Positions 2,878 to 5,857 of a stretch of DNA of 56,778 nt are shown piece by piece. The notes beneath the pieces are model-generated. The model had not been told where the DNA came from. It saw only the letters and a program-made list of their open reading frames with translations, and did no database searches. Within the stretch, counting starts at the first letter, position 1. Each line of letters starts with the position of its first letter. Where the stretch lies: positions 1-56,778 of the forward strand of contig CANDAG010000025.1 of the NCBI GenBank assembly GCA_947382625.1, read 5' to 3'. The translations under genes and the position numbers were made by a program. Origin of the DNA: an uncultured Lachnospiraceae bacterium (GTDB taxonomy: Bacteria; Bacillota; Clostridia; Lachnospirales; Lachnospiraceae).

Positions 2878-4500
2878 TTAACCAAGAAGGGAAAGTACGC
2901 CCTGGTTGGACTGATTAGCCTGTGCAAGCATTGCCTGGCCTGCCTGTGCAAGGATATTGTTGTTGGAATATCTGACCATCTCTGTCGCCATATCGGTATC
3001 ACGGATCTGGCTTTCTGCCGAGGTTGTGTTCTCAACTACGTTATCCAGGTTGTTGATGGTGTGCTCTAAGCGGTTCTGGATCGCTCCAAGAGCAGAACGC
3101 TGGGTAGAAACAATCTGTAATGCCGCTTTAATGGTTTCGATAGAATCCCTTGCATTTGTATCAGAATCACCATTTACCTTAAGACCGTCAATTCCAAGTC
3201 CGGCTGCGCTCATTGCCTGGATCTTCATGGAAATCTGGTTGTTCTCTGTTGCGTCCGCGCCAACATGAAGGTCAAGATCAAGGGCTGCTGTCTTGGTCTG
3301 GGCAGATGCCACATAGGTAGCAATGTCAGCCTCTTTCAGCTCCGTACCATTTTCATCCACATACAGCTTCTTATCCTCTTTAATGCTAAGCGTGCCATCC
3401 TCTGCGATATCAAAGTAGCTGTCAAGGCCATTTTCGGCAATCTTGTTTCCATTTACATCGTAGAGCTGAGGCTTTCCGGCGGGTGTGTATGTGTAATCGG
3501 TGCCTTTTACGGCTACTACTTCAGGAGTATTCGTTGGAGCTTTGGTATATACCTTTTTATTAGCTTCCAGTGCCGCTACAATCCCTGCTCCATCTAATTT
3601 TTTACCGTCTTCATCAAAAACTTCTTTTCCGGCCGTAACTGTCGCTGTTGCAGGCACTACACTTAAAGCGCCCAGGGCACCGCCATACTTGTTTGAGTTA
3701 ACCTGGCCATTTGTGGCAGAATCATTATACAGCTCCTTATTCGCTTTTATTGCCGCGATCAGATCAGCTCCTGTTAATGCCGTATCCGAGCCCTTCTCAT
3801 AAGCCGTAGTAACTGCACCGGCGCCAGCTTCCGTTGCCGATGCTGCTGTATAAGTATAATCTGTTCCATTGGCAGTTGCCTCTGTTCCGTCTGGTCCAAC
3901 CACCTTTTTTGTTTTAATAACCTTCGCCGCAGGATCAGCATCTAAATATTCCTTTAAAGCATCTGCATCCGCAATTGCATCTCCATTTGCTTTAAACAAG
4001 CCTGTAACGCCAGCTCCAAAAGCTGCAGAGCTGGGCATATCCGTAGCAGAATAAGCCGCCGTATATTCCTTATCCGCCGTAGTATCCCCTTTAAGCAGAT
4101 AGGTCTCATTAAACTTGGTTGTCTCCGCCACACGGTCAATCTCTTCCACAAGCTGATCGATCTCATTCTGGATATACTCTCTGTCATCCACAGAGTTTGT
4201 TCCGTTTGCTGCCTTAACCGCCAGCTCATTCATTCTCTGAAGCATATCGTGGACTTCAGTGAGCGCGCCTTCTGCAGTCTGCACTGCGCTGATACCGTCC
4301 TGTGCATTTAAGGAAGCCTGCGTAAGTCCGCGAACCTGCTTCCTCATCTTCTCAGAAATTGCCAGCCCTGCCGCGTCATCGGCCGCACGGTTGATCTTAT
4401 AACCGCTGGATAACTTCTCCGTTGACTTCGCCTGTGTCTTGGTTGTAAGTCCTAACATTCTGTTAGAATTCATTGCTGTAAGATTGTGTTGTACTACCAT
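2878..4500 (-). CDS. hag: Flagellin
   Basis: 540 residues. This is the filament subunit, exported through the flagellar type III apparatus without a signal peptide. The N-terminal D0/D1 region (about 1-140) is conserved, with [24 protein letters not shown] and the TLR5-contact region [15 protein letters not shown]. The C-terminal D1/D0 region (about 440-540) ends [11 protein letters not shown]. The middle (about 150-430) is a hypervariable Ala/Asp/Lys-rich surface domain with loose internal repeats (GTDYTYT occurs twice). The gene follows csrA. Its leader carries a hairpin with GGA in the loop and an ACAAGGAGGT ribosome binding site, the layout known for CsrA control of hag in Bacillus. No fliW or other flagellar gene is in the window. 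Confidence 0.95.
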
Positions 4501-4602: not shown

Positions 4603-4878
4603 CTATCGGTCATTTGTAACAATGGAAATGTTTTTCTTCGGGAATGTTTTTCCTTTATACTTCTCCGGATGCTCTTCTTCCTTATAAAATTTAGGAACCT
4701 TAGCCAGCAGCTCCGGATCCTTGATCCGCTTTTCCATTGCCTTACTTCTGACGATGGGAATCTCTTTGGGAGCGTCAACCATGATTCTGATATGGTTCCC
4801 CGTTCCCCCGAGAAAGACAATCCTAATGTCATCCCCGATCATCAAAAACTCCTCTGTTGAAACCGACATCCTTAACAT
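4603..4878 (-). CDS. csrA: CsrA-family RNA-binding regulator (divergent)
   Basis: 91 residues. CsrA dimers bind GGA motifs in leaders and block translation. Residues 1-50 follow the CsrA fold: MLRM start, the IGDDIRIVFLG strand turn, IRIMVDAPKEIPIVR with the RNA-contact arginine near position 44. It departs from the family in the first strand (SVSTEEF instead of the usual SRKxGE) and carries an extra 40 charged residues (EKRIKDPELLAK and onward) where CsrA normally ends near 60-75. The start follows AAAGGAGGAG. It sits directly before flagellin, as csrA does in other Firmicutes, which supports a motility role. Some RNA-binding properties may differ given the altered N-terminus. Confidence 0.75.
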   Translation of the reverse strand: MLRMSVSTEEFLMIGDDIRIVFLGGTGNHIRIMVDAPKEIPIVRSKAMEKRIKDPELLAKVPKFYKEEEHPEKYKGKTFPKKNISIVTNDR

Positions 4879-4958: not shown

Positions 4959-4979
4959 TCCTGCCTGAATGTTACCCTT

Positions 4980-4998
4980 TGCATAATTTGTTACATTT
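4980..4998 (-). repeat. Left 19-bp inverted repeat (recombination site?)
   Basis: Read on the minus strand this is AAATGTAACAAATTATGCA, identical to 5773-5791 on the plus strand. The two copies are in inverted orientation and bracket the tyrosine recombinase. Weaker similarity extends on the inner/outer side (a GTnACATT arm follows in both copies), giving each copy a dyad shape like a recombinase core site. Confidence 0.8.
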
Positions 4999-5131
4999 AC
5001 GTGTTCTCACGAACCTTGCGCCAAGTGCAAAGTCAAGACGAGCTTTACAGGAGCTGCACACATACAGATAAAATCTGTTTTCCACAGCACAAAATAGGAG
5101 TATAGTTTTTGGTCTGAAAAGGAGGAACCCT

Positions 5132-5710
5132 ATGAGCACAACACAACCGATTAAAAACAAAGACTGTCTCGATATGATGAAGGACTATTACAGAATTGTA
5201 AAAGAAAATCCACGCAACTATCTTTTGGTGGTGATGGGAGTCAACACTGCCCTACGCATCGGCGATATTCTGGCTTTAAAATGGGAGGATGTATACTCCA
5301 CCGCCCATTGCCGATATCACACCCATATTACGCTCAGAGAGCATAAGACGGGAAAGCAAAACATCCTTATTCTGAACCGATCCGTGATCGAAGCGCTGGA
5401 TTTTTATTCTGATGGAAAAGAAATGGCTCCATGCCAGTATTTGTTTCAGAGCCAGAAGGGAGCAAACCTGCCCATCACCCGCCAACAGGCATTCCGCATT
5501 ATCAAAGAAGCTGCCGCTTATGCCGGCCTTACGGAGCATATCAGCTGCCATTCCCTGCGCAAGACCTTTGGCTACTACGCCTGGAAGCAGGGTGCTTCCC
5601 CTGTTCTTTTGATGAAGATCTACAATCATTCTTCCTTTCAGATCACCCAGCGGTATCTTGGAATCGATCAGGAAGAAAAGGACAATGTGTATATGAATAT
5701 CAATTTGTAA
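5132..5710 (+). CDS. Small tyrosine recombinase (catalytic domain only)
   Basis: 192 residues. This is a site-specific recombinase of the tyrosine/phage-integrase family lacking the usual arm-binding and core-binding N-terminal domains. All catalytic residues are visible: Arg42 (ALRIGD), Lys72 (HKTGK), His140-x-x-Arg143 (HSLRK), His166 and nucleophile Tyr175 (RYLGI). The ATG follows GGAGGAACCCT. No phage or transposon genes adjoin it. It is enclosed by a perfect 19-bp inverted repeat at 4980-4998 and 5773-5791, and lies between csrA-flagellin and a DUF1015 gene. Small stand-alone recombinases of this kind often invert a neighbouring segment to switch surface structures. That role here is inference. 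Confidence 0.88.
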   Translation: MSTTQPIKNKDCLDMMKDYYRIVKENPRNYLLVVMGVNTALRIGDILALKWEDVYSTAHCRYHTHITLREHKTGKQNILILNRSVIEALDFYSDGKEMAPCQYLFQSQKGANLPITRQQAFRIIKEAAAYAGLTEHISCHSLRKTFGYYAWKQGASPVLLMKIYNHSSFQITQRYLGIDQEEKDNVYMNINL

Positions 5711-5771
5711 AAATTTATTAAAAAGGGGTTAAAGTTTTTTAGATGTCTGTCGATATATGTATTGGTAAGAG

Positions 5772-5811
5772 GAAATGTAACAAATTATGCAGATTGTTAC
5801 ATTTCTTTTTT
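5772..5811 (+). terminator. Recombinase terminator overlapping right repeat
   Basis: GAAATGTAACAA (5772-5783) pairs perfectly with TTGTTACATTTC (5794-5805), 10-nt loop, then TTTTTT. It is an AT-rich but complete intrinsic terminator. Its 5' arm lies within the 19-bp inverted repeat and its 3' arm outside, so inversion between the repeats would split it. Confidence 0.7.
5773..5791 (+). repeat. Right 19-bp inverted repeat (recombination site?)
   Basis: AAATGTAACAAATTATGCA, the exact inverted partner of 4980-4998, 774 bp apart. It is followed by GATTGTTACATTT, which makes a dyad of two AAATGTAAC/GTTACATTT arms around a short spacer, the usual geometry of tyrosine-recombinase core sites. Confidence 0.8.
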
Positions 5812-5857
5812 ATTATAACCAAATGGCGGACAATTCACTCCTTTCATCTGCCCTTTG

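Follow-up and report, generated by a model that had tools for sequence, protein, structure and literature searches.

The recombinase segment beside csrA and flagellin

The window, by which we mean the whole 56.8-kb stretch of DNA that was analysed, contains a gene for a small, single-domain tyrosine recombinase of 192 aa (5132–5710, + strand; PF00589, E 5.3e-23). Next to it, on the opposite strand, are csrA (4603–4878, −; PF02599, E 1.7e-16), the first gene of the pair predicted to be controlled, and a gene for a 540 aa flagellin (2878–4500, −; PF00669/PF00700), the predicted switched target. The only Pfam domain found in the recombinase was PF00589, spanning residues 24–180 with a score of 82.1 bits against a curated cut-off of 27.1. 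Residues R42, K75, H140, R143, H166 and Y175, which correspond to the R-K-H-R-H-Y catalytic set, were conserved across 62 aligned relatives, each in 61 or all 62 of them. Of the NCBIfam models for the FimB/FimE DNA invertases, PRK09871 matched weakly at 50.9 bits and PRK09870 at 39.3 bits, both far short of their cut-offs of 222 and 221. CsrA is 91 aa long, and about 40 of its residues form a tail past the Pfam domain match (residues 1–50).

The perfect 19-bp inverted repeat claimed around the recombinase gene in a first-pass annotation of this DNA is exact, with AAATGTAACAAATTATGCA at 5773–5791 (+) and its inverted copy at 4980–4998 (−). Allowing up to 3 mismatches, these were the only two matches in the window, compared with an average of 0.02 in shuffled sequences, and allowing up to 2 mismatches they were the only two places in the 4.18-Mb assembly. 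The dyad pattern reported for each copy was also borne out, as both have dyad symmetry over about 28 bp and sit in a 31-nt inverted repeat at 87% identity. The gene calls and Pfam matches agree that a single recombinase gene lies between the copies, beside csrA and flagellin. The predicted left recombination site (4968–4998, −) and right recombination site (5773–5803, +) are thus inverted relative to one another, are identical over the inner 19 bp, and have their 6-bp centres at 4980–4985 and 5786–5791, respectively.

Between the stop codon of the recombinase gene and the right site is a predicted sigma-28 (flagellar) promoter (5730–5756, +), the best sigma-28 match in the whole window. It scored 12.4 out of a maximum of 13.4, using weights of our own that were built on the sigma-28 consensus, with 10.5 as the threshold for a match. 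The promoter faces right, away from csrA and flagellin, and is parked in front of a hairpin formed by the right site (17 pairs, −16.3 kcal/mol) that runs into a T-tract (5767–5815, +) and from its fold is likely to be a terminator. This hairpin was absent from the output of the terminator scan, which allows only loops of 3–8 nt. Between the left site and the start of the flagellin gene the best sigma-28 score was 9.7, below the threshold of 10.5. When the segment was inverted in a script, the promoter came to lie ahead of csrA with a 139-nt leader, and both sites were intact but for one edge base. The first-pass annotation had placed a promoter aimed at csrA and flagellin after a flip; there is a promoter inside the segment, but it is this separate sigma-28 promoter and not the recombinase's own. 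Neither the sigma-28 promoter nor the hairpin and T-tract facing it had been mentioned there.

Paired sites in relatives

Relatives of the recombinase were collected from GTDB genomes and further whole genomes, giving 90 non-redundant tblastn hits. As the first repeat search had selected on left-right identity, it was redone using the dyad arms alone, scoring each locus with a model built from the others; 86 of the 90 hits had usable flanks. The cut-off of 9.5 was picked after the scores were known (the 95% and 99% points of the null were 7.9 and 13.1, and some null stretches held real sites). Dyads were found on both sides at 55 of the 90 hits, 52 of them at the strict 99% null cut-off, counts that are not independent because the loci are related by descent. 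The first-pass annotation had held that repeats missing around the recombinase in relatives would speak against a switch, and these paired dyads leave its proposal standing. The remaining hits comprised 20 with a dyad on one side, 11 with none, 3 with short flanks and 1 that was the second piece of a split gene; a dyad pair within 500 bp was therefore missing in 31 of the 86 testable hits. At six of the one-sided loci (L038, L096, L113, L101, L117 and L141) the partner was farther off and, examined by eye, was inverted with a matching centre.

The segments at L038 (3873–4817), L101 (5283–6290) and L117 (7575–8711) are longer, with an inserted ORF beside the recombinase gene. In L101 this ORF is clearly PDDEXK_2, while those in L038 and L117 gave weak nuclease/transposase matches below the cut-off. 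In L274 (8057–14765), the recombinase gene is found among FapA, HD/response-regulator and PDDEXK_2 genes, with one site and a sigma-28 promoter facing flagellin. In L276 (9290–11486) an inverted pair of sites lies beside, not around, the recombinase gene; between the two sites is a group II intron reverse transcriptase.

The paired loci fall into two styles. In 44, as in the window, the sigma-28 promoter is 3′ of the recombinase gene and the dyads have TGCAAC-type arms. In the other 11 the promoter is 5′ and divergent and the arms are of the GTAACAC type; the recombinases of this layout form one clade. Both layouts occur once in the genome that the window belongs to, one in the window itself and the other in contig C6, where the flagellin is 276 aa.

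Promoters inside and outside the segments

All 55 paired segments contained an outward-facing sigma-28 promoter scoring 10.5 or more, compared with 12 of 1100 shuffled sequences, and in 50 of the 55 the end of the −10 element was 12–20 nt from the site. On the flagellin side, a sigma-28 match at this threshold was found at none of the 46 switch loci tested. In one genome subset, sigma-28 promoters were present at 8 of 8 flagellins of the same class located away from switches and at 0 of 16 located at switch loci. Counting the C16 flagellin of the window's own genome, which is of the same class, lies away from the switch and has a sigma-28 score of 12.0, a fixed sigma-28 promoter was found at 9 of 9 such flagellins elsewhere. 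No start was obtained for 3 of the 30 flagellin loci in this comparison, and a sigma-28 match was lacking at three flagellins belonging to another class (MK.N).

The flank faced by the parked promoter was richer in T than the flagellin side at 43 of 44 loci of the window layout and 10 of 11 of the other. The exceptions were L054, where no flagellin was found, and L056, with flagellins to both left and right. In L056 (2490–5946) a single segment lies between two divergent flagellin genes, encoding 459 and 597 aa, and a T-tract is absent from the flank ahead of the promoter; this is apparently the layout of an either/or toggle.

Proposed mechanism

The locus is very probably a self-inverting sigma-28 promoter switch for csrA and flagellin, that is, a flagellin phase switch resembling Hin in which the recombinase is of the tyrosine type. 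The sites, their centres, the promoter and a flagellin gene that lacks a promoter of its own are present in the window, and both orientations were found among the paralogous loci of one relative, described below. The recombinase encoded inside the stretch of about 804 bp would be the enzyme responsible and would bind both dyads. Strand exchange across the identical 6-bp centres would then flip the recombinase gene and the sigma-28 promoter together in living cells. In the OFF state, as sequenced, the promoter points right into the hairpin and T-tract, where transcription would putatively terminate. In the ON state the flipped promoter would point left and, via the 139-nt leader, csrA and the 540 aa flagellin would be transcribed and expressed.

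Orientation of the segments

The state in the window assembly is OFF. Among the first 55 loci, 49 were OFF and none ON, one had flagellins on both sides, and five had no flagellin or csrA recognised within 1.5 kb. The six longer segments with distant partner sites also read OFF, L117 on a weak promoter match, as did two later loci (L231 and L235). In a single relative, G606, there are four loci, and a separate csrA and flagellin accompany each of them. In L270 the sigma-28 promoter faces csrA and flagellin (ON), while L271, L272 and L273 are OFF. The outer flanks of L270 keep their roles, with the T-rich flank on the far side, and the inner ends are swapped. This pattern is the nearest to direct evidence of inversion, though as a comparison of paralogous loci rather than of one locus in two states. 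Two recombinases at two of the G606 loci are 100% identical, suggesting that the switch unit was recently copied. In G662, sigma-28 also faces flagellin, and this locus, where one site was found, was left out of the ON count.

A contig end was found within 700 bp of the recombinase gene in 15 of the 48 whole-genome hits listed, which exclude weaker homologues, compared with 3.0 expected. Mixed orientations would break assemblies near the recombinase gene, and as repeated flagellin genes could do the same, the excess may be taken as a hint.

Near-universal OFF is not what an evenly reversible switch predicts. It may instead be that a once-active switch is now locked OFF in most species, leaving the flagellin as a silent reserve copy; all 49 of the first loci with a one-sided orientation are OFF, and at some (20 of 86) a single site is left. 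A lock should, however, bring decay, yet the centres, the dyads and a sigma-28 promoter facing nothing useful have been kept in 55 of 55 paired loci from many genera. The catalytic residues of the recombinase, which should likewise decay, are conserved, and L270 is ON. We therefore consider a locked switch unlikely.

If the promoter switch is active, it could form part of a wider scheme that we put forward tentatively, as something that may well prove wrong. Gut Lachnospiraceae and their relatives would show family-wide clonal variation of flagellin, in which each variable flagellin has a private recombinase, promoter and 6-bp crossover centre, so that several loci within a cell flip independently. 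They would be biased to OFF with brief pulses of ON, perhaps via an outside promoter that transcribes the recombinase gene mainly in the ON orientation. In 25 of the 44 loci with the promoter 3′ of the gene, no more than 60 nt separate the site from the start of the recombinase gene, and so short a gap would lend support to transcription of the recombinase from outside or from the site itself. An inward extended −10 element was present on the parked side in 14 of 42 loci, compared with 3.2 expected from simple shuffles. With a fuller model and dinucleotide-type shuffles, 4 of 42 loci exceeded the 95% null (2.1 expected), and in the other layout the fuller model placed 1 of 11 above it. An outside promoter transcribing the recombinase gene in the ON state is thus attractive as the cause of the OFF bias, but the tests disagree and it is offered as a guess.

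Crossover centres

The 6-bp centre was the same on the left and right in 54 of the 55 paired loci (51 of 52 at the strict cut-off), and the sole mismatch was a one-base difference in length. There were 35 distinct centres, and 2000 random re-pairings of them gave a mean of 3.0 matching pairs and a maximum of 11. Centres that agree within a locus yet differ between loci are the mark of a crossover site, as recombination demands agreement and an operator does not. The window and 54 of its 55 paired relatives thus have the makings of DNA inversion, two inverted sites with an identical crossover centre, and an invertible switch acting on csrA and flagellin, as first proposed for this locus, is the best-supported reading.

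In a second sample of 40 hits, matching pairs were found in only four (L231, L235, L244 and L263). Five others had weak pairs with differing centres (L237, L240, L251, L259 and L260), and the remainder were one-sided or had no dyad. The order-level homologues L236–L269 come from other families, and a genome often has several of them. Most have either a single dyad, upstream, or no dyad, and do not neighbour a flagellin gene.

The dyads adjoin promoters and their arms are conserved, as would be expected if the recombinase, or some other dimeric protein, used them as operators or for autoregulation and no recombination took place. Such sites would not require an identical free 6-bp centre left and right, whereas here the centres vary between loci and agree within them, and the flipped segment in L270 would be left unexplained, making this account very improbable. 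A small mobile element that excises or moves between attachment sites is hardly credible, even though the recombinase matches the phrog_216 integrase (E 1.2e-54) and the identical recombinases at two G606 loci indicate that copies spread, because attachment sites of an inserted element are direct repeats and the asymmetric centres here are inverted, the unit stays beside csrA and flagellin and keeps its outward sigma-28 promoter, and one scan of IMG/VR confirmed no relative.

Comparison with known systems

The FimB/FimE fimbrial switches also combine a small single-domain tyrosine recombinase with promoter inversion. The Fim recombinase genes lie outside the invertible segment, whereas here the gene is inside. 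Invertible promoters of gut bacteria have reportedly been catalogued with PhaseFinder (by Jiang, in 2019), and promoter inversion in gut commensals would be the feature in common.

In the Salmonella Hin/fljBA system (PMC7241687, PMC11868660), the recombinase gene and a flagellin promoter are also carried on an invertible segment, one orientation of which drives flagellin. The layout in the window is of the Hin type, with the invertase gene and promoter inside the segment and flagellin outside, and L056, with a flagellin on each side, resembles the either/or form of it. Hin, however, is a serine invertase, and the enzyme here is a tyrosine recombinase in which PF00589 was the only domain found. 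The dyads with a variable 6-bp centre, the csrA-flagellin target and the parked promoter facing a likely terminator also differ from Hin, and a conserved FljA-like repressor gene was not seen at the switch loci.

Clostridioides difficile, likewise a Gram-positive gut bacterium, also phase-varies its flagella by means of a tyrosine recombinase, RecV (PMC5386303). According to that paper, the invertible segment there measures 154 bp, has 21-bp repeats and is located in the 5′ UTR of the early flgB operon. It acts after transcription initiation, and the recombinase that flips it is encoded at a distance and serves several switches. By comparison with that account, the loci described here are not of the RecV type: their segment is about 0.7–1.0 kb long and carries both the recombinase gene and a sigma-28 promoter that serves one flagellin only.

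Flagellin phase variation by promoter inversion is a known kind of switch. The build, with a tyrosine recombinase gene inside its own segment, a sigma-28 promoter parked against a terminator, several flagellins and private centres, appears to be new to us, and no description of such a switch was found in the literature searched, which included few subscription papers. For recombination biology, the loci would offer a natural set of crossover centres, at least 35 of them distinct, on which related enzymes act.

Flagellins of gut commensals

Antibodies to Lachnospiraceae flagellins are reported to be raised in Crohn's disease and ME/CFS (PMC11285207). Switching would let gut bacteria vary a protein that is under immune surveillance, and if a switch decided which flagellin such commensals produce, uneven exposure would have a cause that can be tested.

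Promoters of Roseburia and Eubacterium flagellins are tabulated in PMC3720852, where several flagellins have none; a switch may explain some of these missing promoters. The flagellin at L062, from R. inulinivorans DSM 16841, is 389 aa, starts MVVQHNMQAM and fits ROSEINA2194_00549 by length and first residues. In that paper, ROSEINA2194_00549 has a sigma-43 promoter only, and a 43-kDa band from culture was assigned to its product. L062 is OFF in the assembly and would thus have been expressed in culture, which fits switching and also fits plain expression from the sigma-43 promoter. Eubacterium rectale EUR_14430, for which no promoter was found, and EUR_14450 have neighbouring tags in Table 1 of PMC3720852, and may represent a two-flagellin locus like L056.
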